A stretch of DNA of 25,871 nt from a virus. Each line of letters opens with the position of its first letter. The stretch's first letter is position 1. Below, in pieces: positions 4,580 to 22,600 of this stretch. The notes under the pieces were generated by a model. The model saw nothing but the letters and a program-made list of their open reading frames with translations, did no database searches and was not told the origin of the DNA. A program made the translations under genes and the position numbers. The DNA lies in IMG/VR virus record IMGVR_UViG_3300007276_000260, positions 1-25,871 of that record; one strand, written 5' to 3'.

Positions 4580-5680
4580 CCAACAACCACTGCGGCTAAT
4601 TGGCCGGGATCAGATGGCAACAATGCTAACTACGTTGCTCTTTTTAAACAGGCTTACGCCGACACCATCCGTCTTAAAGCACAGACCATGGAAAGTCGCC
4701 TTTCCGACACCTGTACTTTTGAGGAACTTCGTGGCGATCCGCTAAACCTAGACGCTTACAAGCCTGTTGCGACAACTACTCGTGATCGCGGCCAGCTTTT
4801 TGGTGCTGCGACCAACGACCAGAATTACTCTGAGACTCTAACCGAGCGTAGGACCGTGGTTCCTGAGTTTCACGAGTTTGCAGAACTCTTTGATCCTCGT
4901 GACGAGCCTGCACTTCTTCGTGCGATTCGCCCGGATTCCAACTACCTGATGAACGTGGCAGCGGCTTTCGGTCGTAAAAAAGACACTGTTATCATCAATG
5001 CCCTTAAGGGAACAGCTGGCGTGGTGGGTTCAACTGGTGGCCACACCTTCATCGAGGATATCTCGGTTGCTCAAAATGGAGTTGAGGGTGGATCTGCATC
5101 TTCTGCTACTGGTGTTTCTGCTGCTCCGGCAGGTTCAATCAGTTTTGGCATGACCAACACCAATTTCACCTTGCAAGCCAACACTGTTGACGTAGGATCC
5201 GCTACTTCCACTTTGTCAGTGGCCGATTTGGTGAAGGGTCGTCAGATTCTAGAGCAACAGGGTGCTATAAACCCTGGTGATCCAGTCTACGTTGCCATGA
5301 ACCCGGCAGTGGCTCGCTACCTTCTGGCTGATACCAACCTGACCAGCTACGACTTTAACGCGATTCGTCCGTTGATGAGTGGTGAGATCGCCAATTTCTT
5401 GGGTTGTGAGTTCCGCATTTGCAATGAGATTCCGACTGGAATCACCACTGCAATGACTGGAACTGGTGCTAATACCGTCACCAGCACTGCAACTCCAGTG
5501 GGTTCGTATGTGTATATGTACACCCGTAGTTCCATGGTGTTCGGAATGGCCCAAGACATGAGCATTCGCTTCGACGAGCTTCCTCAGCGTGGTTACTCTC
5601 TCCAGGCTTACCACAGTCTTGGATTAGGTGCTGTGCGGATGGACCCGAAGAAGGTTGTTCGTATCGGTACTTTGGCCTAA
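4571..5680 (+). CDS. Major capsid protein
   Basis: The 369-aa coat protein forms the icosahedral shell. Its N-terminal part matches the phage capsid family seen in BPP-1-like podoviruses: YVALFKQAYADTIRLKAQTMESRL (residues about 17-40), then TTRDRGQLFGAATNDQ, PEFHEFAELFDPRDEPALL, and MNVAAAFGRKKDTVIINALKGTAG (about 137-160). The family has the HK97 fold. A Gly/Ser/Ala-rich stretch at about 155-215 may be an extended loop or insertion. The start at 4571 follows GAGAGGAG at 7-nt spacing. Codon choice is visibly more GC-rich than in the neighbouring genes (many ACC, GCC, TTC, AAC codons), as expected for the most highly expressed protein. It follows scaffold and a structured leader and precedes the small virion proteins. 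Confidence 0.92.
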   Translation: MAYPTTTAANWPGSDGNNANYVALFKQAYADTIRLKAQTMESRLSDTCTFEELRGDPLNLDAYKPVATTTRDRGQLFGAATNDQNYSETLTERRTVVPEFHEFAELFDPRDEPALLRAIRPDSNYLMNVAAAFGRKKDTVIINALKGTAGVVGSTGGHTFIEDISVAQNGVEGGSASSATGVSAAPAGSISFGMTNTNFTLQANTVDVGSATSTLSVADLVKGRQILEQQGAINPGDPVYVAMNPAVARYLLADTNLTSYDFNAIRPLMSGEIANFLGCEFRICNEIPTGITTAMTGTGANTVTSTATPVGSYVYMYTRSSMVFGMAQDMSIRFDELPQRGYSLQAYHSLGLGAVRMDPKKVVRIGTLA

Positions 5681-5702
5681 TCGCTAAATAGGAGTTAAAC
5701 CC

Positions 5703-6170
5703 ATGTCTGGCAAAACAAATCCGATATCGGCTGCTGTTTTAGGACTTTTTACAGGTTCTCAACCAGCGTTGTTTAGCGAGACATGGGTTAGCCTATTTAC
5801 GACTAACCCTACAACAGATGGCTCTAGTGCGATTTCATACCCGATACCAGGAACAGACTACGTTGAATGGGGTGGAGGCAGAGTACAAGTTTTGACGGGT
5901 TCTAACCCTCAAAATAATCCTCATTGGGACGGTCCTGAAATTGACGACATAAATACAAATCGTTGTCGAATTAAGAATAGTACAATTTTTGGTTGGACGA
6001 GTATCTCAGGTCTTTCAGTTGCTGGAGATACTGTATTAGGTGTTGGTGTATGGAGTGCTGCCTCAGCTGGAAATTTGTTGTATTGGGATGTTTTAGACAA
6101 TCCAAGATTCATACAAAACGATGACACTTTCCAGTTTTTGGCTGGAAGTTTAGTTATCCGGGAGGATTAA
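5703..6170 (+). CDS. Small virion protein, tail-fibre/decoration-like (paralogue 1)
   Basis: A 155-aa beta-rich protein. WVSLFTTNPTTDGSS near residues 28-42 recalls the common phage pattern VSLHTADP found in short structural proteins often labelled tail fibre or decoration. The C-terminal half GVGVWSAASAGNLLYWDVLD...DDTFQFLAGSLVI follows the same plan as the family's GIYDAATGGNLL and GDTLKF repeats. It probably coats the head or tail surface; this is inferred from family resemblance and from its place immediately after the capsid gene. The ribosome binding site AGGAG lies 10 nt before the ATG. The gene ends in GGAGGATTAA, which doubles as the ribosome binding site for the next gene, whose ATG follows the stop without a gap. 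Confidence 0.75.
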   Translation: MSGKTNPISAAVLGLFTGSQPALFSETWVSLFTTNPTTDGSSAISYPIPGTDYVEWGGGRVQVLTGSNPQNNPHWDGPEIDDINTNRCRIKNSTIFGWTSISGLSVAGDTVLGVGVWSAASAGNLLYWDVLDNPRFIQNDDTFQFLAGSLVIRED

Positions 6171-6716
6171 ATGCTAACACTTAAAGAAGAAGGAGTATTT
6201 ACCTTCAAAGTGTATAAGCCAAATGGTGAATTAAGAACTGAACGCAAAGCACATAATACAATGACAAATGAAGGTGCAAATCGCATTTTGCGTTTATCGT
6301 TTGATACTGGTGCAACGGCGGCAGTAGATACAATTTACACTGGATTAATTTCTTCTACGGTTCCGAGTTCAAACATACAAGTAGCGTCTACCAATACCGC
6401 TACAAACATAAAATTAGATACAGCCAGTTCTCCCTTTAATAATAATTGGACTGAGTTGGTGAATGCTGGGATTACCTCTAGGCCAACTTCCACATTGGGA
6501 TTTAGTTCAGCGGCTAATAAAGTCACATTTACAGATGCGACTTTTAATATAACTACTAATACAGAAACTACTGCTGGGGCTTTCATAGTTAGCAACTCAA
6601 CTAATGGTTCTACCGCTGGAAGTCTTTTTGCTTGTGCCTTATTTTCTGGTGGAAATTTAACTATTGAAACTGGAGAAACCGTTAAAGTAACTTTTGAAAT
6701 GACCCTTAACCCGTAA
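6171..6716 (+). CDS. Small virion protein, beta-rich (paralogue 2)
   Basis: A 181-aa Ser/Thr/Asn-rich protein with no signal peptide or membrane segment. The N-terminus EEGVFTFKVYKPNGELRTE...NTMTNEGANRIL fits a recurrent phage pattern in which xVTNEGLNxIL precedes a beta-sandwich. The end, SNSTNGSTAGSLFACALFSGG...ETGETVKVTFEMTL, is related to the ends of the genes on both sides. It is probably a surface-exposed head or tail protein, but its role is unproven. Translation is likely coupled: the ATG directly follows the upstream TAA, and the GGGAGGA ribosome binding site lies inside the previous gene. Confidence 0.72.
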   Translation: MLTLKEEGVFTFKVYKPNGELRTERKAHNTMTNEGANRILRLSFDTGATAAVDTIYTGLISSTVPSSNIQVASTNTATNIKLDTASSPFNNNWTELVNAGITSRPTSTLGFSSAANKVTFTDATFNITTNTETTAGAFIVSNSTNGSTAGSLFACALFSGGNLTIETGETVKVTFEMTLNP

Positions 6717-6728
6717 AGGAGAAGCAAA

Positions 6729-7400
6729 ATGAAAGCTTCTGGAAACATGAGTTGCAACGCAACTCCAGAAATTATTAGATCCAGAGATGCGAGTGCTTCT
6801 TTGGGTAGTCCAAAAGCCGCATTTGAAACTGGCTATTTCGACATTGAGCATCTCGATAAAGATGGAAATGTAAAAGCCAAGTTTCGTGCGTACAACGGAA
6901 CGACTCGCGAGTTGGCTGATGGTATTTTTGATTCAATAGACCCTAATGCTACCTCTATATTAGGTGCTTCAGGTCGTGCCGCAAAAATTCTTTTGTATAG
7001 AAACTCATCGGCAAATGTCGGGCCGGCCTTGCTCACTACAGATACTTACGCCAATTCTATATTAGCATCTGGCTCAGGTGGTGGTAGTTTTCATACAAGT
7101 ACTTTTGAACCTGTAGACGGTTGGACTGGCGATGATGCTAATGGCGGTCTTAGCTGGGGCGGGACAGGGCACAATTTTACTAAAGTAATAGCGGCCACCT
7201 CCACAATGGCGAATACAACTGCCGTGGCTTTTACTGGTTTTGGCACCACAAATGTAGTTGGTGCAGCAGTGTATTCTGAAAATTCCGCAGGAAACGCTGG
7301 AGTCCTTATTGCAAGTGCTAACTTCACTGCTGGAATCGCAAGTGTACTCGCTGCGGATACTGTTAACGTGACTTTTACCATTCAGTTAGCGGTAGCCTAA
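6729..7400 (+). CDS. Small virion protein, beta-rich (paralogue 3)
   Basis: A 223-aa protein that lines up with the preceding gene at both ends. Its segment ETGYFDIEHLDKDGNVKAKF parallels EEGVFTFKVYKPNGELRTE. Its end GAAVYSENSAGNAGVLIASANF...AADTVNVTFTIQL parallels GAFIVSNSTNGSTAGSLFACALF...ETGETVKVTFEMTL. The centre is Gly/Ser/Thr-rich and differs, as expected if the middle is the exposed variable part. The ribosome binding site AAGGAG lies 8 nt upstream of the ATG. The first 30 residues (KASGNMSCNATPEIIRSRDASASLG) extend beyond the paralogue and may be an anchoring arm. Its stop overlaps the ATG of the 38-aa gene. A structural role is inferred, not shown. Confidence 0.72.
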   Translation: MKASGNMSCNATPEIIRSRDASASLGSPKAAFETGYFDIEHLDKDGNVKAKFRAYNGTTRELADGIFDSIDPNATSILGASGRAAKILLYRNSSANVGPALLTTDTYANSILASGSGGGSFHTSTFEPVDGWTGDDANGGLSWGGTGHNFTKVIAATSTMANTTAVAFTGFGTTNVVGAAVYSENSAGNAGVLIASANFTAGIASVLAADTVNVTFTIQLAVA

Positions 7401-7516
7401 TGCCAAAAGTAGGAAAAAAAAGATTCACTTACAGTAAGTCCGGAGTTGCAGCGGCAAAAAAGTACGCTAAGAAATCCGGCAAGAAGGTCGTTAAAAGATC
7501 TACTCGTAAAAAATAA
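7400..7516 (+). CDS. 38-aa basic phage protein (MPKVGKKRF family)
   Basis: A very small gene whose ATG overlaps the previous TAA (TAATG). The product starts MPKVGKKRFTYSKSGVAAAK and continues with Lys-rich sequence ending in KKVVKRSTRKK; nearly half the residues are Lys or Arg. Short proteins beginning MPKVG with an F-x-Y-x-x-x-G core recur among tailed-phage structural genes, which supports a real gene here, though no function is established for them. The charge suggests binding to packaged DNA or to acidic virion proteins. The stop is followed immediately by the ATG of a 19-codon ORF that I do not regard as a gene. Confidence 0.7.
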   Translation: MPKVGKKRFTYSKSGVAAAKKYAKKSGKKVVKRSTRKK

Positions 7517-7529
7517 ATGACACACCTCT

Positions 7530-7538
7530 GGGGGGGGG
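7530..7538 (+). repeat. G9 homopolymer tract in the intergenic gap
   Basis: Nine consecutive G residues lie in the 67-bp gap before the LamG-like fibre gene and are followed by the near-palindrome GGTGACTCACC. A pyrimidine-rich CCTCTCCCC at about 7557-7565 can pair with the G tract, giving a possible hairpin over the junction. Such tracts are slippage-prone, so length variation between genomes is plausible. It lies outside the fibre reading frame, so any effect would be on RNA structure or transcription. Confidence 0.55.
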
Positions 7539-7583
7539 TGACTCACCGGGCTGTTGCCTCTCCCCTATTAGATTAGGATCAAA

Positions 7584-8729
7584 ATGCCGATAGTAAAATT
7601 CGAGTTTGATCCGAAATCAGACCCTACATTTCAAGAGGGTGGATTTAATTTCCCTGGTGCAACATTTCCTTTTGATGCAACCATCTCATCCATACAAGCT
7701 AAATGCACGAACTCTGGTAAAATTTGCAAGATTCGGGTTGGTAAAAAACTTGTCGATGACTTTATTGCGGAAAACGAACTTGAGCAAGAGCCAGCAATGG
7801 TGTGGACTGCTGAGTATGGTGGATACACCGATAAGACAAGTACTGGATTATTAACTAATTGGCATAGATTAGATGATTACGATGAAGGATCTACTCAAAC
7901 AACGGGTAGTTATAAACCGTTATGGCAAGATAACCAAGTTAACGGTTTTCCTGCTATAAGATGTGTCGTTTTAGATCATGTCATATTTGATACTCCTATA
8001 TCATTACGTAGCAATCATGCCTGGACTATATTCATTAATTTTGGAAACTACACCCCGTCACTGTATGGGTGTTGTTTAGGATCCCGTAATAATTCAGGAA
8101 CAAGTATATTATCTGCATATCACTGGGCAGGTATTTGGGCAAAACTGAGACATGATGCTGGTGGAGAGTTTCAAGTAAACGCTAATACAGGCACTTCTGG
8201 TCAATATTTTGGAGGTGTAAATTCTACACATATCCTAAGATGCGACGGGAGTAATGTTGTATCAATTAGGGTAAATGGTCAATACACAGGAAGTTCTACA
8301 GTAACGAGCGGCAGCCAATATAACTTTGACCGCATAGCGTATTACAAAACAACTTCAACACAGAGATATGGAAACTTTAATCTTACCGACATAATGGTTT
8401 GGGACGATTATGAGTTTACAGATTCTGAATGTGAAGATTTAGAAGGTGGATTTACTTCTAAATATAATAGTAGAAGTAAGCTTTCATCTTCGCATCCTTG
8501 GGCAAGCGGTAGTTCTAAGACTTCTTCAGATGCGTACAACACTCCTAAAACCGCGTCTTCAACTGCAAAAACAAGTTCGTTATTAAATAGCCTAACAACT
8601 TCAGATCAAAACCTAACATTAATTTCTGGCGAGTCTTCGATATCAGCAGGTGATCATATTTGTGTTTTCTTAGACGACTATAATGACTGTGGAACAATTG
8701 TAGTCACAGTGAATTATACGGAGGATTAA
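7584..8729 (+). CDS. Fibre or receptor-binding protein with ConA/LamG-like lectin domain
   Basis: A 381-aa protein. Residues about 70-295 look like a concanavalin-A-like (LamG-type) beta sandwich: a tryptophan-led strand near AMVWTAEYGGY, the NHAWTIFINFGNY strand in the middle, the VVSIRVNGQYTGSS strand, and the closing IMVWDDYEFTDSECEDLEGGFTSKY, a common end of phage lectin domains. The N-terminal 70 residues differ and may attach to the virion. The Ser/Thr-rich linker (about 300-345) leads to a short beta region GDHICVFLDDYNDCGTIVVTVNY. The likely role is glycan binding at the host surface or virion decoration. The ribosome binding site is weak (AGGA). The gene ends in GGAGGATTAA followed directly by the next ATG, the same junction as at 6161. 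Confidence 0.72.
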   Translation: MPIVKFEFDPKSDPTFQEGGFNFPGATFPFDATISSIQAKCTNSGKICKIRVGKKLVDDFIAENELEQEPAMVWTAEYGGYTDKTSTGLLTNWHRLDDYDEGSTQTTGSYKPLWQDNQVNGFPAIRCVVLDHVIFDTPISLRSNHAWTIFINFGNYTPSLYGCCLGSRNNSGTSILSAYHWAGIWAKLRHDAGGEFQVNANTGTSGQYFGGVNSTHILRCDGSNVVSIRVNGQYTGSSTVTSGSQYNFDRIAYYKTTSTQRYGNFNLTDIMVWDDYEFTDSECEDLEGGFTSKYNSRSKLSSSHPWASGSSKTSSDAYNTPKTASSTAKTSSLLNSLTTSDQNLTLISGESSISAGDHICVFLDDYNDCGTIVVTVNYTED

Positions 8730-9038
8730 ATGAGCTACTTGTCAGAAGATAATTTACCAGCCGTATTTCCTGAAACTATGGTTATCGATGGCGATACATA
8801 CACAAAAACATCTACTGAATCTTTAGCAGATTCTTCAGGGACTCTTCAATTTCAATGGTGTCAATATGAAGGTCCACCTGGAAAGTATGTGGCTCGTTTT
8901 TGTCGGCCAGATAATACAGCATCTCCTGTTTTATATTATTACGACGAGTTTGATCAAACTTCAGGAAGTGGAATGAGTCCTGAACAATGCCAATTGGCTG
9001 CTTTATCTAAAGTCGCTTCTATCTGGAATGCTATCTAG
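8730..9038 (+). CDS. Hypothetical protein, 102 aa
   Basis: I do not recognise this family. The product is acidic, without a signal peptide or membrane segment. It has an aromatic centre (LQFQWCQYEGPPGKYVARF) that suggests a small beta domain and a C-terminal helix SPEQCQLAALSKVASIWNAI. Its ATG abuts the stop of the lectin gene and uses the strong site GGAGGA inside that gene, so the two are probably made together; it could be a partner or chaperone of the fibre, which is inference. It ends 2 nt before the next gene, which has no clear ribosome binding site of its own and may depend on translation of this one. Confidence 0.65.
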   Translation: MSYLSEDNLPAVFPETMVIDGDTYTKTSTESLADSSGTLQFQWCQYEGPPGKYVARFCRPDNTASPVLYYYDEFDQTSGSGMSPEQCQLAALSKVASIWNAI

Positions 9039-9040
9039 TT

Positions 9041-11962
9041 ATGGCAATTACTCTTGTATCCAGAGGGGTTGCATTATCTGGTGTCACTTCAGATCAAACA
9101 TCCGCAATTCCTAATGGAGTTCAAGCGGGAGATTTGTTTGTCGGCTTTTTAGCAATTGAACGAGAAAATACCGCTGACCCAAGAATCCGATTTGGAGGTA
9201 CGTCAAATTTTCCAAGTAGGCAAGGAGTTGCTTCTACTCAAGGAAGAAGTTCGACATACCTTTATTTGAAAACCGTTCTTTCTGCTGATATTACTAACGG
9301 AACTATTGGTGTTACAAATTCAGGTGATGAAATTGCTAGGAACGGCTGGCACTTTCATCATAGTTATTTTACTGGAGATATACCGACTAACTTAAACAAT
9401 ATCGACATAAATAACTTTTCAGCTCCCCCTCAAGACATCGGTACGGATGCTACAAATAGCTTAACCTCTAGCGATATTACGGCTTCAGGTACTACAATAC
9501 CTACCACTTGGAATACTGAAAATTATTCATTAGGCAGTGTTTTTATAGGTGCTTGGCATCATCGACGCATAAACGGTGGTGAATATTCATTAAGTCCCTC
9601 AACGGGTTGGACTCTTACGGAAGTAGAAAGATCCAATAAATGTTCTTCAGGAGTGATTGCGTTTATTGCACCATCTTCAGGTTCATTAGGTTCCTACACT
9701 GCTTCTATTACTCAGAATAATCCTGATCAAAATAGTTCACTTGTATTTGGTATTCCGTTATCTGCTGCCCAACCAATAACATACACAAAAACAGTAACAG
9801 CGACGGCAGCAAGTTTTACAGCCCAAGATCCAATAGTTGCTACTGAATATATTAAAAATCCTCATCTTAGTGTCGTGACGCAACTATTCCTAATGGCTCA
9901 AACGCCGGCGGTGCAGGTAGACCCTGGCAAGTCGGTGACGGCGACAGCGGCCTCGGCGACAGCCGGAACCCCAGTGGTGCAGATAGACCCTAGCAGGTCG
10001 GTGACGGCGACAGCGGTCTCGGCGACAGCCGGAACCCCAGCGGTACAGGTAGACCCTGGCAGGTCGGTGACGGCGACAGCGGCAACGGCGACAGCCGGAA
10101 CTCCAGTGGTGCAGGTGGACCTTAGCAGGTCGGTGACGGCGACAGCGGCCTCGGCGACAGCCGGAACCCCAGCGGTGCAGGTAGACCCTGGCAAAGTCCC
10201 AATTGCTACGGCAGCAACATTTACGGCTTCTGCAATCGGCTCTATATCAAGTCAGGTAATTTCAAAGAATTTAACGGCGACAGCGGCGACGGCGGCAGCC
10301 CAAACGCCGACGGTGCAGATAGACCCTAGCAGGTCGGTGACGGCGACAGCGGCAACGGCGACAGCCGGAACCCCAGCGGTACAGGTAGACCTTAGCAGGT
10401 CGGTGACGGCGACAGCGGCCTCGGCGACAGCCGGAACCCCAGCGGTACAGGTAGACCCTAGCAGGTCGGTGACGGCGACAGCGGTCTCGGCGACAGCCGG
10501 GATCCCAGCAGTGCAGGTAGACCCTGGCAGGTCGGTGACGGCGACAGCGGCAACGGTCGAGGCATTTGTAGGATTGACTTACAATGTAGACGTTACGTCA
10601 GCGTCTATATCAGCAATTGCATTAGACGTAACAATTGTAAAAACTCAGTTTATCGATGTTTCAAATGGGAATACTTTCTCAGCAACCTCTTCTACTGAAT
10701 ATGGTTACGGCTATACCGTTGCTGACTTATCTTCTTCTGCTGAATTCCCAAGTAGACTAATTAGCACTACGTTTACAGCTGAGAGATTTCCAGAAGTAAC
10801 TGCTACTGTTTCGGCTGGGATTATTAATCCAAATGTAGTTACAGATGCACCCGAAATAAACGTATCTCTAAACGTATCTATTTCAGCATCTCCTAAAAAA
10901 GAAATTAGTCGATCAGTTACTGTTGCGGCAATGACGACAGACGCATATACGTCTTACCCTTCAAGTCAAACAATTCAAATTTCTTTGACCGCTAATACAG
11001 ATACTCAAACTCAAATACCTATAAATAATTCACTGAATTCACAAGTAAGTATAAGTCGAGAAATAACAAAGATTATTTCTATAACAAGTAGCGGTTTTGC
11101 CGGAGCTGAAATAACTGGCGGAAATATTCGTCGTGATATTGAAGCATTGTTTTCTATATCGTCAAATGTCGATCAAAGTTCCGGATCAAGTTTTGAAGTT
11201 TCAGCGGACATCGACGGAATTGGTTCAATCGGAGCAAAGCTTTCCCAAAGATTAATTACGGAGGCAGATATCGATGGTGTAGCAACCATAGATGGGCCGC
11301 TTATTAGAGGAGTAGATGTTGTGACAATTACAGAAATTTGGAATGTGGCATTAGTTGAATTGGGGATATCTACTGTTACTGAAGTAGACACTTCTCCTCA
11401 AGCCCAACTGTTAAGCACTGTTTGGAATGGTGGATTCCGGCAGCAGTTCTTGGCGGACCATGCTTTCCACGGAGCAAAGACTACGAAAGATTTATCTTTG
11501 TATAAAGATTCTTCTGGGAATGCGATTAGTCCTTCAGGGTCTCGTTGGAAGAGTGCATACGAGTTGCCAAGTGACTATATCAGAGCTTTAACTATTAACG
11601 GATTAGCAATGCAGCCAAATAGTTCAATGGGCAAAAACGCTTGGGAAATAGAGATTGTTAGCGACGGTGCTACTGTTCCTGTTTTGAAAAGATGTCTTCT
11701 TTCCAACGAAGGTTCAATAAGCCTGGAGTACATTATGGATATTGGAAATAACAATATATCTTTAATTTCTCCACTTGTAGCCCACGCTTGTGGATTATCT
11801 CTTGCGGCTCACGTTGCTACTAACTTTGGTAAAAACCCGAACGAGCAAGCCCAGCTAAATCAAAAAGCAGCGGACGCGTTATTAGCGGCTAAGGGAGTGG
11901 ATGGGCAAGAATCGAGTCCTAGATACTTTAGCACTACGTCACTGTTAGATGTGAGGCGATAA
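9041..11962 (+). CDS. Adhesin-like repeat protein fused to tail tubular protein A domain
   Basis: A 973-aa protein with three parts. Residues 1-245 form a beta-rich adhesin-like domain (GVQAGDLFVGFLAIERENTA, RSSTYLYLKTVL). Residues about 245-755 are Ser/Thr/Ala-rich and repetitive, containing the GC-rich 22-residue repeats at about 286-507 and more diverged, AT-rich versions on both sides; a beta-solenoid or stalk is likely. Residues about 761-973 match T7 gp11-type tail tubular protein A: TEIWNVALVELGI, WKSAYELPSDYIRAL, and the end PLVAHACGLSLAAHVA...LLAAKGVDGQES. T7 gp11 is 196 aa, so the whole domain is present. Tail tubular B follows with no gap, the expected order. An in-frame GTG at 11321 with a strong ribosome binding site could also yield this domain alone. 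Fusion of a long fibre-like stalk to a tail gatekeeper is unusual. Confidence 0.88.
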   Translation: MAITLVSRGVALSGVTSDQTSAIPNGVQAGDLFVGFLAIERENTADPRIRFGGTSNFPSRQGVASTQGRSSTYLYLKTVLSADITNGTIGVTNSGDEIARNGWHFHHSYFTGDIPTNLNNIDINNFSAPPQDIGTDATNSLTSSDITASGTTIPTTWNTENYSLGSVFIGAWHHRRINGGEYSLSPSTGWTLTEVERSNKCSSGVIAFIAPSSGSLGSYTASITQNNPDQNSSLVFGIPLSAAQPITYTKTVTATAASFTAQDPIVATEYIKNPHLSVVTQLFLMAQTPAVQVDPGKSVTATAASATAGTPVVQIDPSRSVTATAVSATAGTPAVQVDPGRSVTATAATATAGTPVVQVDLSRSVTATAASATAGTPAVQVDPGKVPIATAATFTASAIGSISSQVISKNLTATAATAAAQTPTVQIDPSRSVTATAATATAGTPAVQVDLSRSVTATAASATAGTPAVQVDPSRSVTATAVSATAGIPAVQVDPGRSVTATAATVEAFVGLTYNVDVTSASISAIALDVTIVKTQFIDVSNGNTFSATSSTEYGYGYTVADLSSSAEFPSRLISTTFTAERFPEVTATVSAGIINPNVVTDAPEINVSLNVSISASPKKEISRSVTVAAMTTDAYTSYPSSQTIQISLTANTDTQTQIPINNSLNSQVSISREITKIISITSSGFAGAEITGGNIRRDIEALFSISSNVDQSSGSSFEVSADIDGIGSIGAKLSQRLITEADIDGVATIDGPLIRGVDVVTITEIWNVALVELGISTVTEVDTSPQAQLLSTVWNGGFRQQFLADHAFHGAKTTKDLSLYKDSSGNAISPSGSRWKSAYELPSDYIRALTINGLAMQPNSSMGKNAWEIEIVSDGATVPVLKRCLLSNEGSISLEYIMDIGNNNISLISPLVAHACGLSLAAHVATNFGKNPNEQAQLNQKAADALLAAKGVDGQESSPRYFSTTSLLDVRR
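9899..10560 (+). repeat. GC-rich tandem array of 66-bp coding repeats
   Basis: Eight near-identical 66-bp units start at 9932, 9998, 10064, 10130, 10268, 10334, 10400 and 10466, with a partial unit before (9899-9931) and after (10532 to about 10557). They encode the 22-residue repeat SVTATAASATAGTPAVQVDPG plus Lys or Arg. A diverged, AT-rich 24-residue unit (10196-10267) splits the array into two blocks of four. Exact 66-bp spacing keeps the frame. Codons are GC-rich (GCG, ACG, GCC, CCC) against AT-rich flanks, pointing to recent local duplication or homogenisation. Confidence 0.95.
11306..11323 (+). promoter_or_regulatory. Internal ribosome binding site and in-frame GTG start
   Basis: AGAGGAG at 11306-11312 is followed after 8 nt by GTG at 11321, in the same frame as the 973-aa protein. 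Starting here gives a 213-aa product beginning MTITEIWNVALVELG, almost exactly the tail tubular protein A domain. The spacing and strength equal those of the best start sites in this window, so a second, short product is plausible. Confidence 0.55.
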
Positions 11963-14647
11963 ATGGTTTGGATTCCACAAGAGCGTTTTAGTTATGGAGA
12001 ACTGAGTCCTCGTCTATTAGGCATGGGGTCGTCAGAACAGGTAAAGCAAGGTTGCAAAACCTTAGATAATGCGATTGTTACACGCACAGGTGGAGTCAGA
12101 AGAAGACCCGGAACAAAGTATGTGGCTGATTTGCCAACAGATGTGACAGACGCATATCTAATTCCGTACCAGTCAGCAGATCAAAATTATATTTTAGTGT
12201 TTGGGTATTCGTCCTCTGCTCAAAAACTGTATGTGTATGACGAATCTGGTCAACAAGTTTCTTGGAATGACGGATTATTTCACGGACCCTTTGCAGCCGA
12301 TCCTATCGACTCTCAGGGAAATCACGGATTTGGATCGGATGCTGGACCTCTCTATCACGTTCAACATGAAAACAGAGTTTATGTGTTTTCTCAGTCAGAC
12401 CCTCCGGTCTACTTTGAAAAGATTTATGGAGCAACTCCAACATTTAAGTTTAATTTGCTTCCAGCAAATGCAGGATCTCCAAAAATTAAAAGTTACAATC
12501 CGACAATCGCCATAACTATGCCAGGTGGAAAAGACAGCAGCATAGAGCAAGATATTATTATAGAGTCTGACGTAGACTTATTTAGAGCTTCAGACGCAGA
12601 TAATACAAGTCCAAGTCACAGTAACCAAAACGGTATTTGGAGGCTTGGTGGAGGATCAGCGAAAGTTAGTCCAACATTTACAGCAAATAGAAATCAAGGT
12701 TATTTATCGTGTTGGTATGAATCGTTTTCCTATGGCGGTCCTAAGAAACTTTCAGGTCGCAGAATTACAAATGGTATGGGTGATGATCTCAATGACTGGA
12801 CTGGCCCATATATAGAAGACAGAACATTCACGGCTACTATTAGTGGCGGAACGATTTACACGTTTCAAACAATTACTACATCAAGTGACAATGATATTAC
12901 CGAATCTGATATAGGAAAAGTTTTTACAATTCAGGCAACTCCAAATAATGGAACTGAAATAAAAACTATGCTGTTCCTTATTCATAGAGTTGACTCTGTT
13001 ACGCAAAGCATAGCGTTTTGTTTAGGATTTTCTGACGCAAACAATAACGAAGTTCCCAATGTTACTGGGATAACTTGTTCTTTGAAAAAATTAGACAAAA
13101 GAGAAGGTGTACCAAAAGTCGTTGGATTTGCTCGTACAAGTCCAAACTCAAATACCGTAATCTCTGGTGATTTTAGTTTATTTTTAGATTCTAACGATTT
13201 CTTGCCAGAAGGTCACGCAACACCATTTGACGGATCAGGATCTGCGACACTTGGAGGAACAGTATTTGTTACGGGGGGAGCCGGAAGAGCCACCGCTCAT
13301 ACTGCTGGAACTAGGTTGTATACCTGCACTGGTTCTCAGGATCGGGCATACTATGGACCAGGTAACATTGGTTTAGGCTATTCTTATGGAACAGGATTTC
13401 CTTCTTTAGGAGCTTCTCACCAAGGTCGTTTATTCCTGAGTGGATTTGATAAAGAATTTCAAACGGCCATTGTTTCTTCAAGAAGTGGAGAACCAGACGA
13501 TTTTTCTCAAGGAGCAAATGACGACGATGGACTAGCGTTCAAGATCAGCAACCAAGTGGGAAATGGAATCCGCTGGATGATTAGCCAGCAGGATTTACTT
13601 ATTGGAACAGATCTCGCAGAGTTCCGTCTTTCAGGTGCCCCCTTAACGCCCACAAGCGTCTCTGTAGACCTCCAAAGTTCCTATGGTGCAGAAGTGGCAA
13701 TGCCCGCCCATCTTGGCTCTGCGACAATCTTTATCACTCGTGGGGGTAAAGGTCTCAGGGAGTTCGCTTACAACGAGTCAACTAACCGTTACCAAAGTGC
13801 AGATTTGACTGATTTGGCTGATCATTTATGGGCGGGGCATACTAGAGGAGAGGCTTACTTTTCTGAAAAATCTCTCGATAAAGTTTTGCTGCTGAATACT
13901 CCAGACCAGTTAGTTGTTGCGAAAAGTGGATTTTCTTTAGATATCCTAAGTTACCGTAGAGAGAACGGTATTTTAGGTTGGTCCCCGTTTCAAAGTGGAG
14001 ATTTGATTACTTCTAGCTTGGGATCTAGATACGACCGTATTGACGACATTGCGATGGTCCCTGGTCGTACTGGAGATAAATACGACCGAGTGTGGATGAT
14101 TGCTCGTCGGTTTAGCAACGGTGGGGAAACAAAAACAATTGAATACCTAGAAGAGGAATCAGTATTAGATTCTCAATCTTCAGCAGTACCTAGTAATAGT
14201 GTAATTAGTGGATTGGATCGTTTTGAAGGCGATACCGTACAAGCCATAAACGGTGTTTTTTACTTAGGGGAATTTACTGTAAATAATGGCTCAATTACTC
14301 TTCCTCTAGATCCAGGTTCATCGGTAACTGTAGGTAAGGGTTTTCAATTTAAACTTTCCCCTGCTGTGCAAGAAATTCAAGGAAGAAACGGATTTACTCA
14401 CGGCCATAAAAGAAGCTATGACCGATCTTTGATTTACTTTAACAAAACCAGAGGTCCGGTAATTGCTGGTTACGATTTGCAAACACTTCCGGCAGCAGGT
14501 TATGCCCTTCCAAGTGAAATTAATGGTTGGCAAGACGTACCTGTAATAGGTCTTTACGGAAAAAATCCGATTTTAGACATAACTCATAATAATCCATACA
14601 CAATCGAGGTTCAGAGTCTCTCGGTTGAAGTGACATACTCAGACTAG
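11963..14647 (+). CDS. Tail tubular protein B (T7 gp12-like)
   Basis: An 894-aa tail nozzle protein. The N-terminus carries the family signature: FSYGELSPRLLGMGSSEQVKQGCKTLDNAI (with residues from about 8) followed by TRTGGVRRRPGTKYVADL. Further family-like regions are HQGRLFLSGF (about 480), the FKISNQVGNGIRWMISQQDLLIGTDLAEFRL stretch (about 525-560) and DRVWMIARRF near 710. T7 gp12 is 794 aa; the extra length lies mainly in Ser/Thr-rich insertions around residues 260-440. Together with tail tubular A it forms the short tail through which DNA and internal proteins leave. The ATG follows the upstream TAA without a gap, and GAGG inside the previous gene serves as ribosome binding site. Confidence 0.9.
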   Translation: MVWIPQERFSYGELSPRLLGMGSSEQVKQGCKTLDNAIVTRTGGVRRRPGTKYVADLPTDVTDAYLIPYQSADQNYILVFGYSSSAQKLYVYDESGQQVSWNDGLFHGPFAADPIDSQGNHGFGSDAGPLYHVQHENRVYVFSQSDPPVYFEKIYGATPTFKFNLLPANAGSPKIKSYNPTIAITMPGGKDSSIEQDIIIESDVDLFRASDADNTSPSHSNQNGIWRLGGGSAKVSPTFTANRNQGYLSCWYESFSYGGPKKLSGRRITNGMGDDLNDWTGPYIEDRTFTATISGGTIYTFQTITTSSDNDITESDIGKVFTIQATPNNGTEIKTMLFLIHRVDSVTQSIAFCLGFSDANNNEVPNVTGITCSLKKLDKREGVPKVVGFARTSPNSNTVISGDFSLFLDSNDFLPEGHATPFDGSGSATLGGTVFVTGGAGRATAHTAGTRLYTCTGSQDRAYYGPGNIGLGYSYGTGFPSLGASHQGRLFLSGFDKEFQTAIVSSRSGEPDDFSQGANDDDGLAFKISNQVGNGIRWMISQQDLLIGTDLAEFRLSGAPLTPTSVSVDLQSSYGAEVAMPAHLGSATIFITRGGKGLREFAYNESTNRYQSADLTDLADHLWAGHTRGEAYFSEKSLDKVLLLNTPDQLVVAKSGFSLDILSYRRENGILGWSPFQSGDLITSSLGSRYDRIDDIAMVPGRTGDKYDRVWMIARRFSNGGETKTIEYLEEESVLDSQSSAVPSNSVISGLDRFEGDTVQAINGVFYLGEFTVNNGSITLPLDPGSSVTVGKGFQFKLSPAVQEIQGRNGFTHGHKRSYDRSLIYFNKTRGPVIAGYDLQTLPAAGYALPSEINGWQDVPVIGLYGKNPILDITHNNPYTIEVQSLSVEVTYSD

Positions 14648-15053: not shown

Positions 15054-18000
15054 ATGGCAATTAATATACCCCGAAGCCCAATTAGCCAAGCCGCAACTCA
15101 AAGAAGGTCGTTACTGCCTGCTCAAGAAGCAAGCCGTATTGCAAAGTCTTTTAAATCAGTTGTAGACACTGCTCAAGAAATATCGATGGATTATTATGAT
15201 AAAAAAGCTCAAGTAGAAGCGGGTAATTTTAACAGTAATCTAAAGACGTTTTCGGAACAGCAGGAGAAGAGTTTTCAAGATTCTGCTCGCAGTATTGGCA
15301 TGAGTGAACAAGAAGACCCTATGGACAGAGAGGCTCAGTTATTTGAGTTGGGTCAGACCTATATCGACAATTTGAAAACCTTTGTCGATACGGAAACAGA
15401 AAATATGGGGCCACTTGCTAAAAAAAGACTGGCTCCACAAATGCAAAAAGCCCTTACTAATTTAAGAAAAGATCCGTCTGGTTTGATGCTCGATCTGACT
15501 TCTAGCATGGAAAAAGGTCAAATAGATTCAATTAAACAACGTGCTTTAGGTGACTACCAAGAATACCCAACAGATGATTTACCAAACCAAATTATAAAAG
15601 ACTTTAATGAGTTAAAAGCATTTGAAGATTTAGGCCGGATTTCTACAGAAGAAGTTAAGAATCTTGAGAAATATACGGTTAACAATATTTCAAACGCATA
15701 CGGTTTGGGAGCCAAAGCCCAGACTCAATTAGCTGTAGACATAATGAGCGGAAAGTTTAATCAACTTCCAAAACCAATGGTCACAGACTTAAATTCTTTT
15801 GTACTTTCAAATCTTCCAACATTTGTTAAAAAAGCAGACGTACACATTAACACCCAGGTTCCGGGCCAGTTTGAAATCAATCCTCAGACTGGAAATATTG
15901 AATACAAATCACCAGACAAGTCTACGTCAGAAGACCTAATTTTTGAGTTTATTAACGGATTAAATAAACTAAATTTTACTAATGAATCTAATGAACTAAC
16001 AGTAAGTGTAGCTACCGGACAAGCAAGTCAAGCATTCGTAAATAGTGTGGGTCAGTCGGCGGCTAGTTTGCAAAACTGGCTAATGGGTAACGGCCTCAAT
16101 CCAATGATTAGCCCCAAGATGTCTACTCATATTTCCTCTTTGTATGCAGAAAATCCCGAGTTCCAAATGGGGCAAGAATACTCTGCGGAAGATCTTTTAA
16201 AATATGACCAAGCTGCTGGCGGTCTCCCTGGATTTGTCATCGATCAAATCAACAATCGCATAAAACAAAATGACATACAGATGTTTGAAACGATGTATGA
16301 GTTTATGGGGGATGCGAAAGCATTTAAAGCAGCAGATAGCACAAGCGAAGATTTCGCCATCGAACCTAGCGTGATGAAAAGAATTGTAGAATACAATACT
16401 CTTCGGAAAAGCGTACCTGACCCTGTTTCGGCTTTTAATGCTCATAACTCTGAAGAACCCAAGGGAAGCGGCGGTGGAGGAGCGAGTGGTCCCGGCGGTG
16501 TATCAGGTTCATCCGCAGACGAAAGAGCTGAAGAATTAGTTGACATTATAGGAGAAAATCCAGAATTTACTTTAAATCAGCAGACGTATTTGGTTAACAC
16601 AATTATTACCGGCGACCAACTCTCATTCATGCAGGCGGACTATAATCCATTCATAACCTTGGATAAAAAAATGCCTATAGGGGCACTACTGGCATGGGGA
16701 AATTTAAAAGCAACTACAAAGTTTGTTGAAAATGGAAATATCCTTGTGAATGGACTTTTAGACCCAGAAAAAACAGATTCACAAGGCACTCTGGCGTGGG
16801 TGCAAGATGAGATTATTCGTCAGCTTGACGCTAACCCCTCGAAGATTTCTAACTGGGAAACAATGCCTAAAGACACTAAAAAAACGTTTATTTCAGGAGC
16901 AGTGCTAGAAAGAACAGAAGAAGGTTTCTATAAAATTGCTCTAGATCCAGAACAAACTCAGGAAATATACCCTACTTTTATTGAAGAATTTTACTTGGAT
17001 TTAAATTACAAAAATTCAATGGCATTTCGCATAAGTAAGCACGGAAGTGGATTCGGATCTATTGAGCTTCAAAACGGAGTACCTCTTCATCAAGGCAAAA
17101 AGCTTAGTGAGTTAACTGCGGAGCAAGCGGCAGATGTCGTAGTTCAAGGAGCAACTGGCGGCATGAATGAACCTTATTTCGATCCTCAAAACGCAGCAGG
17201 AAGAGTTGCAGAAACTGCGTTAGGTGCTGTTGTAAAAGTAGCGTCTGTAGCAGGAACAGAAGTCTGGGAGGAAATTGAGTACGGGGTTGGAAACCTTTGG
17301 AATTTAGTTATTGCTAACATTTCTGATGATCCTACTGAAACTTGGAAGAACCTTAGATCTCGCGATTTCGAACAGGGCAAACTTGGATCTGTGGACAGAG
17401 TTCCAGAAGTAACTGTTCCGCAAGATCCAATTCCTCCGTTTTTAATGGTTCCAAGATTTAGAAATATGTACCATGAAATAATCCATACGGTTGTCAACGA
17501 CTTTCAAAATCCTGGTTCTTATGAAATAACTAATGGAGTTCAATTAAATCCAACTCTTAGCCGTGCTCTTGACCGTTTAAAAAATGTATTTACTACTGCT
17601 AGTCCAACTGGTCAAGAAAACTTCTTACAACTGATTCTTCAAAACGCAAAATTGTCAGACGATTTCCAGACAGTAGTAATGGATGTAGCTAACAAAAGAT
17701 TTCAAGAACGCCTGAAGCAAGTAATTATCGACGATCCTACAGTTATAAATGAATTTACAGCACCCCCAAATGTTCAAGCTCAATTTCGGGAAACTTTTAC
17801 TACGAATTTTTCCCTAGAAGATTACGCCAAAGGACGTATTTCTTTAATTACAAGTATAACTGACACACAAACCATTCCTGAAATTGTAAAAGACGTTCTA
17901 GATCTTGCAGACGAGGGTGCAGCAGTTCTGGCTTCTTTTGTCAATGAAAAAACTGATCAAGTCTATGAAGCGTTGCCAGATCGAATCATTAAAGATCCAT

Positions 18001-19619
18001 TGATACAAGAGCCACTAGTAAAACAAATTTTAGATGATCGTGGTGTGCAATCTGTTTTTAAGAGGGTTGAACAATTAATAGAAGAGCTTTCGGAAACCGG
18101 AAACACCTTCGTGCAAATGCTTACGGGCCGTGGTCCTAAAGGCCAAAAGTTTAGAAAAACACTGGAAGACTCTGCTGTAGGACAACTAGCTGATTTGCCA
18201 GTAGATTTTGCCACAGCGGCCAAGGATTCATTTGACAGTACCGATTTTGATTCTTTTTGGCCTGACACAATGAAAGTCGTTGAAGACGTTACCGTTGGAT
18301 ACGGAGAACTTGCCGGAAGTACCATTAAAGTTCTTGCTTACGATCTGTGGAAACAGATTATCGAACAATCACCAAAAGGATCTCTGCCGGTTGACGAAAA
18401 TGCACCTTTTTATAAAGCTATTGGAGAAATAGTCGGAGGAGCCGCCGAAGGAGCCTGGTCCACAGTAAGAACCTTGTACTACGATGCACCCAAGGCAATG
18501 GGTAAAGCGTTTATGGACTCACAAATGGGTAAAGAACTTAAACCAGTTTTTGACGTTGCAGAAGAAGTTTTTGACGCTGGATCAGAAATTGCTGGCGGTG
18601 CCGCTGGTTTAGCTGGGGAGACTTTAAAGTTTCCGTTTGCTTTGATTGAAGATCTTTCAGAAGCAACAGCAAAGCAACCACCTGTTGACACAAAAGATAA
18701 AATGAAATCTTTAACAGAATCTGCTTTTGGTCGAATTGTAATTGATACTTCTAAAGGCTTTATTGATCTCTATACAGAAACTTTAAAAGTTCCGTATATG
18801 ATTCTAGAGCAATGGCCAAAAACTAAATCTCCAGAAAAAGTTACCGGAGCGGTAAAACCTGTAAACCCATTCCCAAGTTTAGAAAATAGATTTATGGGAC
18901 AGTTGCGTATGAACGTAGATGTTCGTATGGAGAACGGGGTAGAAATATCTATTCCAGGTCAGGCTCAAATAAACAACGGTATGTTGCGAGTCGTTCCTGA
19001 TAATCCTCGCTACTCTAACCTTCTTAATGGCCAGAACATAGAAATCAAAATAAACCCTATTACTCCTATTCAAGATGCTTTGGGTCAAAGTATCCAGTTC
19101 GGCTCTGACGCTCTGCCTTCAATTCCAACAACTAAATTCGGCAAGCCGTATGTACCAGAGGATTTAGAGAGCAATGTTGAGCAGTGGAAAAAAGACAATG
19201 CTGATTTCAACACTATGCCTAGAAAAGATGGATCTTATTATCCATCTAATTATGACATGGATGTTAGAAATGTGCAGCGTTTTGTATCTTCTAATGAACC
19301 TAAAGCAATCCGTGAAATTTCCAAAATGCTATATGCATCTATTGATTCTGAAGACAAAGATTTTTTATTCGTAAGCGGCCTAATTAAGAAACCTAAAGGA
19401 GCTAGAAAAGGCTGGTACGGAAAATATTACACAACGGAAAGCCAGAAAATGTTGGAATCTTACGGTCAAAATCCAAACGCGGCATTAAAGACTATGCAGA
19501 CTGGATTATCTCAAGTGATGCCTGGTAACTCTACCGTGTTTATTCTAGGTCTCACAAACCAACAATTTTTCTCTTTGGTAGAAGATTTACATAACTTGTA
19601 TGAAATGGAATCCAAATGA
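15054..19619 (+). CDS. Internal virion (ejection) protein, gp15-position, 1521 aa
   Basis: A very large, mostly helical protein in the place of T7 gp15. The N-terminal 450 residues (QAATQRRSLLPAQEASRIAKSF, then long Lys/Glu/Gln-rich helices with QVEAGNFNSNLKTF) look like the start of gp15-like internal core proteins. A Gly/Ser linker GSGGGGASGPGGVSGSS at about 470-486 divides the protein. The C-terminal two-thirds is of unknown fold, with amphipathic Gly/Ala helices such as GEIVGGAAEGAW and GSEIAGGAAGLAGETLKF (about 1125-1205). I see no lytic transglycosylase or peptidase motif. It is about twice T7 gp15 (747 aa), so it may combine functions. The role is inferred from order: after gp14-like, before gp16-like, with a 4-nt ATGA overlap to the next gene. 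Confidence 0.75.
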   Translation: MAINIPRSPISQAATQRRSLLPAQEASRIAKSFKSVVDTAQEISMDYYDKKAQVEAGNFNSNLKTFSEQQEKSFQDSARSIGMSEQEDPMDREAQLFELGQTYIDNLKTFVDTETENMGPLAKKRLAPQMQKALTNLRKDPSGLMLDLTSSMEKGQIDSIKQRALGDYQEYPTDDLPNQIIKDFNELKAFEDLGRISTEEVKNLEKYTVNNISNAYGLGAKAQTQLAVDIMSGKFNQLPKPMVTDLNSFVLSNLPTFVKKADVHINTQVPGQFEINPQTGNIEYKSPDKSTSEDLIFEFINGLNKLNFTNESNELTVSVATGQASQAFVNSVGQSAASLQNWLMGNGLNPMISPKMSTHISSLYAENPEFQMGQEYSAEDLLKYDQAAGGLPGFVIDQINNRIKQNDIQMFETMYEFMGDAKAFKAADSTSEDFAIEPSVMKRIVEYNTLRKSVPDPVSAFNAHNSEEPKGSGGGGASGPGGVSGSSADERAEELVDIIGENPEFTLNQQTYLVNTIITGDQLSFMQADYNPFITLDKKMPIGALLAWGNLKATTKFVENGNILVNGLLDPEKTDSQGTLAWVQDEIIRQLDANPSKISNWETMPKDTKKTFISGAVLERTEEGFYKIALDPEQTQEIYPTFIEEFYLDLNYKNSMAFRISKHGSGFGSIELQNGVPLHQGKKLSELTAEQAADVVVQGATGGMNEPYFDPQNAAGRVAETALGAVVKVASVAGTEVWEEIEYGVGNLWNLVIANISDDPTETWKNLRSRDFEQGKLGSVDRVPEVTVPQDPIPPFLMVPRFRNMYHEIIHTVVNDFQNPGSYEITNGVQLNPTLSRALDRLKNVFTTASPTGQENFLQLILQNAKLSDDFQTVVMDVANKRFQERLKQVIIDDPTVINEFTAPPNVQAQFRETFTTNFSLEDYAKGRISLITSITDTQTIPEIVKDVLDLADEGAAVLASFVNEKTDQVYEALPDRIIKDPLIQEPLVKQILDDRGVQSVFKRVEQLIEELSETGNTFVQMLTGRGPKGQKFRKTLEDSAVGQLADLPVDFATAAKDSFDSTDFDSFWPDTMKVVEDVTVGYGELAGSTIKVLAYDLWKQIIEQSPKGSLPVDENAPFYKAIGEIVGGAAEGAWSTVRTLYYDAPKAMGKAFMDSQMGKELKPVFDVAEEVFDAGSEIAGGAAGLAGETLKFPFALIEDLSEATAKQPPVDTKDKMKSLTESAFGRIVIDTSKGFIDLYTETLKVPYMILEQWPKTKSPEKVTGAVKPVNPFPSLENRFMGQLRMNVDVRMENGVEISIPGQAQINNGMLRVVPDNPRYSNLLNGQNIEIKINPITPIQDALGQSIQFGSDALPSIPTTKFGKPYVPEDLESNVEQWKKDNADFNTMPRKDGSYYPSNYDMDVRNVQRFVSSNEPKAIREISKMLYASIDSEDKDFLFVSGLIKKPKGARKGWYGKYYTTESQKMLESYGQNPNAALKTMQTGLSQVMPGNSTVFILGLTNQQFFSLVEDLHNLYEMESK

Positions 19620-22600
19620 ACCAACAAGAAATCTTTAACCAACACCTGAAAAACAAAAGCAGTTATGACCAATTGACCATGTTGTCAAATTTAAGTAACG
19701 AAACCAGAGCCAGATTTTTAATGCAGCCGACTCGTGTCAGTGGATTTATGGAAACAGCCGGTGCTTTTTTTCGACAGACAAACACAGTAAAGAACTTCGC
19801 AACAGGACTTTGGGATCGTGACTATGCTAAAGACTCTAATTACAATGCTATTGAAGACGTAGATATTAAAAACAATGCTTGGATAAAAGAACTTTATCCC
19901 GATGCCTATGCTTCAATTATAAACTCCAATAATCGTCTTGAAACCGTACATAAATTAGAGCAGGTAAAAAGAGAACACCATGACCGGCAAATTATAGAGC
20001 AAGCGGGAATAGGGACTGGTTTAGCAGCAGGTCTTGGAGCTGGTCTTTTAGATCCGATTAATTACATTGCTCTAGGTGGGGCCATGAGAACCGCCAAGGC
20101 TGTTGGGTTAGCCACGAGGCCACTGGCCGTCGGAGCGGTCGGAGCGACTGAGAACGTCATTGGCTTATCCGTAGCGGAGCCTTTTCTTAGAGCCGCACAA
20201 ATGACTCGTACAGACGAAGAGTTTCATCGTGACCTCTTTGGTGGCGTGGCACTTGGAGGGCTATTTGGGGGCATTTCTGGTTCTATAAGTTCGGCATCTA
20301 CTGCGACAAGCCGAGCATTATTAGGAACAGACAATCCAGAGAGTTTAATTTCTCAACAGGGAATAAACGATTATTTGCAAAACAATCCTGAACAAGCTCA
20401 GAGATTAGATGATCTTCTCGACGGAGATCAAGGTTTTGCTGTTTATGGAGAAACAAGAGAAGAACTTTCTGGAATTTTATTAGAAGCAACTAGGGGCACA
20501 AATCCTGAGTTAGCTAGAATTTTAGGCCAAGATACTTTCTTTGGAAAAATGCTAGTAAAATTCTTATTCTTGAATCCGGCAATGAATCTTTCTAGGTCTA
20601 ATTCGCAGTTTGCCAGGGCGGCCTTGGATATCATGACCAAGCCAGCAATTCTAAGAGAGAATACTTTAGATACGCAGAGCATTGAAGCGGTTTTAGGAGT
20701 CGCTGAAGTAGCCGCTGGCCGTATAGAAGTACGCATGGATACGGAAATATCAAGTTATATAGCTAATGGTGGCAGACTTTCAAAACAAGAAGTCCTAGAT
20801 TTAGCAGGAAGAGCGGCAGTAAGGACTGATATTGTAGATCCACAAAATGCTGCTAACGATTTCGTCATTGACGAGATCACAGGTGAACTAATAGAAGTCA
20901 ATCCTTTTGCTGGTTTAGGCCAAGCTGAGATTGATGTTATTCAAAAAGTAGCGGGAATTAATCGTCAATTTTCTGACGCAATGAGAAAGACAGCCGTTAC
21001 AGCAGGAGCATTTACAGAACAACAAATCGATGCTGTATTTGCCAGCAACTATTTGCAGAGAAGATATAAAAGAGACAAAATTGATATGCACCCTGAACAG
21101 TTACGTGCAGTATTGATAAAGGCTTTTGAACATAAGAGATTGACAGAATTACCTGGATTGATAAGTGAAAGAGACGCAGTTAAACAACAATTAGACGATA
21201 TCAATAACCGTTTGCGTAATATGGCTCCAGATAATCCTGACCGAAGAGCGTTGGAATATGATAGTGAGCAATTAAATGATAGTTTAAATCAATACCAAAG
21301 AAGTATTGATGATCTTGGAAATCCTGATAACTGGGAAAATTTAGCAAATGCTGTTGAACTTCGTTTGAGAGATCAAATAGAAGATGACAGCGGCGGCCAA
21401 GTCAGAAGCACTAACAGTTTAAATAATCGTGTATTGGATATTGAAGACCGTTTCCTGTCTCCTTTTATAGAACATAATGTTTCCACTCTCCAAAAACAAC
21501 AGGTTCGAGTTCTTCTGCCTCAGCTAATGGCTGCGAATGCAATGGGGAATCACATGGACGGATTTCGTCTTAGCCCTGCATTGCAGACTAGATATACAAA
21601 TGTAGTAAACAGACTTGAGGAAATGAACACAAATCCTGATCGTTTTGGTTTTGAAGAGATCAATGAAACTAGGCTAGAATTAGAAGAAATCCTTGACGAT
21701 GCGTCTCACTTGGAATTGCAATCTAACTTACGAGTCAATCTAGATTTAGAAAGATTAGGCCACACGAGTCAGCAGGATTTGCAAGAAACGCTAAACAGTT
21801 TAGTTACAAATCTTAAAGAAGCTAGAAAAGGCTACCGAAGAACCCAACTGGAAATTAGAAATATATCTGAAAAGTTACGACTCGCAAGAGCTACTAATTT
21901 AGGCAGATCATTAATTCAAGATCTTGAAAATCAACTTACAGAGTTAAACGCTAACGCTCTTGAGTTTAAAAACACGATGGGTAACCAAAGAACTCAAATA
22001 AATAAGTACGCAGACAATGCAGTTGTAAGCGGAACAAACGAATTAAATATTGATTTTAATACTAGCAAGTTTGGTTTAAACGAGATCAATTTTGAAGGGG
22101 CTGTAACTCCCGCTCAAATGTTGCAGAGACTTATTGTTACTAACAAATCTAGAGTATTAGCCTCTGTAGCCAACTCTCGCCGTAAATCATATATGGTCAA
22201 CAACAACTCCCAACAACTTCAAGTTCAATTGCAACTAGACTTCCAGAGAATGCAACGAGATATTGACGCGGATTCTAGTTTGTCGTTTAAAAGAAAGACT
22301 AGAGAAAAAGAAAAGTTACGCAAAAAAATGGATCGAGATTTACAGGACTTAAAGGTTGTTTTTGACAGGTTACGCGGAAGAGATACTCCTGGAGATGCTT
22401 TGGGAAGAATCGGAAAAACTGTTAGGGATTTAAACTACTCTCGATTGGGTGGTGGATTTTTAATTTCCAGTATGCCCGACGCACTGGTTGGCGTTGCTCA
22501 AGTTGGATTACCTAATTATTTGCGAGCCTTTGCAACGCGATTAAATCCATTTATTAGTAAAGCTGAGTATCGCAGGGATATAGCAGAATATTTATATGCA

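Follow-up and report, generated by a model that had tools for sequence, protein, structure and literature searches.

In bacteriophage T7 the tail adaptor gp11 forms a ring of 12 subunits, with the tail fibre attached at the junction of adaptor and nozzle (PMC6702177). An adaptor can carry further domains: roseophage R4C has a 12-subunit adaptor on which an N-terminal Ig-like attachment domain, 106 residues long, makes contact with the capsid (PMC10276861). In a Vibrio phage, tail tubular protein A (TTPA) has also been reported as a host receptor binder (PMC7241545). Another type of comparison is provided by the two-polypeptide endolysins CTP1L (PMC4777826) and LysP7951 (PMC9430671), for which one gene has two in-frame starts and a common stop codon, and the short C-terminal product joins the full-length product in a multimer (1:5 in LysP7951, PMC9430671).

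The locus considered here lies in a stretch of DNA of 25,871 nucleotides from an uncultured virus (IMG/VR record IMGVR_UViG_3300007276_000260), hereafter the window. It shares features with each of these systems. As for T7 gp11 and KP32 TTPA (PHROG 394), the last 213 aa align with the family along its length and the gene is directly 5' of the nozzle gene; here, however, the adaptor is the C-terminus of a protein of 847 to 1026 aa in complete members. The fibre of T7 and its kin is a separate docked protein, whereas a covalent fusion of ring and fibre is proposed here. With the dual-start endolysins the gene has in common two in-frame starts, the second being predicted, and a shared stop codon, but it encodes a structural ring protein of the virion and not a lytic enzyme, and we infer co-assembly of its products. 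A repeat-rich stalk and an exchangeable tip recall the tail fibres and receptor-binding proteins of podophages. The polarity is reversed compared to ordinary tail fibres: the tip is N-terminal, the anchor (TTPA) is C-terminal, and this anchor is the ring protein itself. Because of the C-terminal anchor we do not class the fusion with the standard tail fibre families, and the likeness concerns fibre-like working only. Finally, an extra N-terminal domain on the adaptor is also found in R4C, whose adaptor belongs to a different family and bears a short domain; the available text of that report mentions no second start (PMC10276861).

Organization of the locus

The window has the gene order of a short-tailed phage: terminase (5' part cut), portal, a protease-like gene, major capsid protein, small genes, the fusion gene, nozzle and internal virion proteins. 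An open reading frame check of the window showed that the fusion gene is a single uninterrupted frame. Its parts are listed in Table 1.

Table 1. Coordinates of the fusion gene, its parts and its neighbour in the window
Feature	Position	Strand	Description
Long fusion gene	9041..11962	+	N-terminal tip domain, repeat stalk, neck and C-terminal tail adaptor; 973 aa
Tip domain	9041..9790	+	N-terminal, about residues 1-250; differs by exchange among relatives; without known family
Stalk repeat	9901..10551	+	66-bp tandem repeat, 9.8 copies, giving 22-aa repeats (SVTATAASATAGTPAVQVDPGR)
Neck region	10841..11320	+	Residues 601-760; unique to these fusion genes, always immediately 5' of TTPA
Internal Shine-Dalgarno sequence	11306..11312	+	AGAGGAG
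Internal start codon	11321..11323	+	GTG, Val761; identical codon in all relatives
Tail adaptor (TTPA)	11321..11962	+	gp11-type, 213 aa; separate production also predicted
Nozzle protein	11963..14647	+	Tail tubular B; neighbour marking the locus

Two very large genes are present 3' of the nozzle gene (15054-19619 and 19616-23779, 1521 and 1387 aa). The product of the second matches PHROG 342, an endolysin domain-bearing internal virion protein. That of the first is without family, and its length varies strongly among relatives, from 1095 to 1521 aa.

The C-terminal domain is a tail adaptor

The long frame ends in a complete gp11-type tail adaptor. Residues 762-972 match PHROG 394 (tail protein, TTPA family) over profile positions 3-188 of 190 with an E-value of 5.8e-22, and the piece from the GTG onward matches positions 2-188 with an E-value of 1.2e-23; Pfam gave no match for the TTPA part. 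The product of the following gene matches the nozzle family PHROG 376 (E = 4e-79) and, slightly short of the cut-off, Pfam Phage_nozzle (E = 1.6e-5), and its best named relatives are the nozzles of HTVC010P-type pelagiphages. The first-pass annotation had recognized by eye a whole T7 gp11-type TTPA at about residues 761-973, immediately before tail tubular B; the profile searches bear out both the identity and the position. The internal GTG is aligned with Met1 of standalone TTPAs from pelagiphage HTVC010P, phage ctVRi840 and MD07 (23-28% identity). The solved connector/adaptor 8ck1_E is matched with an E-value of 0.0025 by a profile of close relatives only, and of 9e-31 when standalone TTPAs are included. 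The gp11-type fold combines a four-helix bundle with a jelly-roll dock for the fibre. The structural model of the C-terminal domain is weak (pLDDT only 43.8) and predicts four main helices; a Foldseek search with it placed 8ck1, T7 gp11 and KP32 TTPA near the top, with E-values of only 0.005 to 0.06, and was counted as support only.

Searches of IMG/VR with the TTPA and nozzle identified six relatives, which form two clades. In addition to the window, the first clade contains L002 and L003, with a TTPA 88-90% identical to that of the window. In the second clade (L007 to L010) identity is 74% for TTPA and 45% for the nozzle. A seventh record, L001, is a fragment whose TTPA and nozzle are identical to those of the window, and it is not among the six; its frame and that of L009 are cut by the contig end. 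In every IMG/VR relative a long frame terminates in TTPA directly 5' of the nozzle gene. A separate TTPA gene elsewhere would have spoken against the fusion; each record contains one TTPA, and no second one was found in the window or in its relatives, the longest of which reach 37 kb. The 35.8-kb contig of L007 looks like a complete permuted genome, since its terminase, portal and capsid genes occupy one end and the genes that follow them the opposite end; no further tail fibre gene could be recognised in the large frames of this near-complete contig. The genome contigs scanned for relatives yielded none. The 80 best more distant TTPAs are all standalone, lack any fused part upstream and begin with a start codon where one is expected. 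The literature covered, itself an incomplete set, contained no account of a fused TTPA that also has an internal start.

Conservation of the internal start

In the window the internal Shine-Dalgarno (SD) sequence is separated by an 8-nt spacer from the in-frame GTG at codon 761. The first-pass annotation had noticed this pair exactly at the domain boundary and had taken its loss in close relatives, combined with peptides of the long form only, as a possible objection; the GTG turns out to occupy the position of the standalone Met1, and both elements are kept in all relatives despite an altered surrounding peptide. The GTG is present in 7 of the 7 rows (window and six relatives), as is an SD of 5-6 nt located 8 or 5 nt 5' of it. 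In the clade of the window the SD reads A-GGA-G plus 8 nt, over R-G-V, Q-G-A or L-G-A. In the second clade it reads GAAGGAG plus 5 nt over E-G-E, one codon closer to the GTG. Different residues and a shifted codon register under the SD indicate that peptide and register changed while the signal stayed. L002 and L003 are similar over most of TTPA, and although they have diverged across its first 30 codons, the signal persists in both.

Over the fusion gene and nozzle, no aligned column other than 761 combines a start codon with an SD of 5 nt or more in all rows. The same criterion was applied to 4,595 aligned codon columns of nine genes, with three or four representatives, and the internal start was again the only internal column retained. 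Invariant Val columns of the fusion gene and nozzle use a single codon in all rows in 2 cases out of 27, columns 761 and 971. The codon of Val971 is fixed in all relatives because this GTG, together with the following AGG, makes up the SD of the nozzle gene (11951-11956).

That the SD is improbable in the window taken alone was considered and rejected: synonymous resampling given the peptide yields an equally good SD and start codon in 15% of trials. For five lineages the chances are 0.15, 0.03, 0.13 (L003), 0.11 and 0.06, with a product of about 4e-6 that is to be read loosely since the lineages share ancestry and are not fully independent. It is because they recur in every relative that SD and GTG exceed chance. 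On these comparative grounds initiation at GTG 11321 is very probable.

The two starts differ in context. The long start at 9041 has little SD and lies 2 nt 3' of the preceding gene's stop codon; start and stop also touch or nearly touch in L002, L003, L007 and L010, which suggests translational coupling. In the six records with both starts the SD is stronger at the internal one (only slightly so in L010), and the RNA around it is less folded than around the long start. As a fold the RNA at the internal start is unremarkable (z = 0.21), and no promoter-like site for a separate internal promoter was found in 8500-12200.

The upstream part and the exchange of its tip

The N-terminal domain is swapped among relatives in the manner of receptor-binding modules or of a fibre tip. 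L008 and L010 are near-identical from the stalk on, with a neck 100% identical, but their first 230 residues (the tip) share 22% identity. The window and L003 are 84% identical in DNA over 7397-9676, which covers the tip and two upstream genes; their stalks are unrelated, and the match resumes at 11308, at the SD itself. The tips of the window and five relatives match no PHROG or Pfam family worth naming, and tblastn of two of them (window and L007) retrieved nothing among phage records. An AlphaFold2 model of the full-length protein built from 7 sequences (pLDDT 31.5) gave no structural support for tip or stalk. The stalk repeat has a visibly higher G+C content than its surroundings, and its copy number is likely variable.

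The neck, when sought elsewhere, was found in these fusions only. It continues in frame into the adaptor in every relative and is constrained as a protein (dN/dS of 0.16-0.20 for L007 against L008 or L010). The adaptor domain is under strong constraint in all relatives (dN/dS of 0.04).

The 381-aa gene 5' of the fusion (7584-8729) travels with the tip domain between relatives. By eye it is lectin-like (LamG/ConA), as are the different genes found at the equivalent place in L002 and L007; no Pfam model confirmed this look. L116, the record of the near-complete relative, carries genes for RecE/RecT-like recombination proteins and for a DNA methyltransferase (4960-7046 and 1852-2787), and the RecE/RecT-like proteins may help explain module swapping.

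Proposed mechanism and alternatives

Taken together, the sequences show a conserved fusion, a conserved internal SD and GTG, the lack of a second TTPA, and tip exchange. In line with the suggestion of the first-pass annotation, we propose an in-frame dual-start gene whose two products, a long adaptor bearing a fibre and a short plain one, would occupy the same ring of 12 subunits, a reading to which we give roughly even confidence. Translation from 9041 would produce the long adaptor with its stalk and exchangeable N-terminal tip, and translation from GTG 11321, with its own strong SD, the plain 213-aa adaptor. Both products would accumulate, and since the same ring-forming domain is present at both C-termini they should co-assemble between portal and nozzle. 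Plain subunits would fill most places of the ring, while the long ones would present adhesive fibres whose tips would bind the host. A ring of short and some long subunits would carry covalent fibres and avoid the crowding of twelve stalks.

The internal start may be real and the two products unmixed: the ring would contain the short adaptor only, and the long protein would be attached elsewhere or act as an assembly or neck-collar protein. We consider this unlikely, although the Ig-like domain of R4C, on an adaptor of a different family, contacts the capsid (PMC10276861), so that host binding does not follow from an N-terminal position close to the neck. The exchange of tips, however, resembles host-range evolution, and the long form keeps the entire adaptor domain in all relatives under the constraint given above; this domain is shared with the short form, and its constraint is not decisive.

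Production of the long protein only, with twelve stalked subunits and an SD-like stretch that is a translational pause at the domain boundary or a by-product of the peptide, seems distinctly improbable. In each genome alone the SD could indeed arise from the peptide (15% in the window, 13% in L003). Neither pause nor peptide accounts for an SD in shifted register over different residues, and the GTG fixed in all rows is left unexplained when other invariant Val codons vary.

Could SD and GTG be a disused relic, left from an event that joined a standalone adaptor gene to a fibre gene 5' of it? The position of the GTG coincides exactly with the standalone start, and the best 80 more distant TTPAs are all standalone. 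Synonymous divergence is however near saturation (pS of 0.67-0.87 for most pairs), both inside the two fused clades and across them; a start without use would by now have been lost, which argues for selection and makes a relic very doubtful. It is hardly credible that the long frame is rarely or never translated whole, upstream part and adaptor being separate genes without an intervening stop by chance: the internal start is the better one in every record with both, but a separate upstream gene would need a stop, and the neck 5' of the GTG is constrained as protein and shares the frame of the adaptor in every relative.

Implications

Our reading of a dual-start gene feeding a mixed ring leads to a tentative picture, held with slightly less than even confidence, in which a lineage of short-tailed phages has merged a host-binding fibre with the tail ring, tip first from the N-terminus, and the two starts set the ratio of fibre-bearing to plain subunits. 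The number of fibres on such a mixed ring of 12 subunits may thus be determined at translation, by the two starts of one gene. Gene callers give only the long form, and the plain ring protein would be missed. If the proposal is true, dual-start genes would be found not only among endolysins but also in a ring of the virion, and the fusion would represent another way to build an adhesion device, with the number of fibres set by translation.
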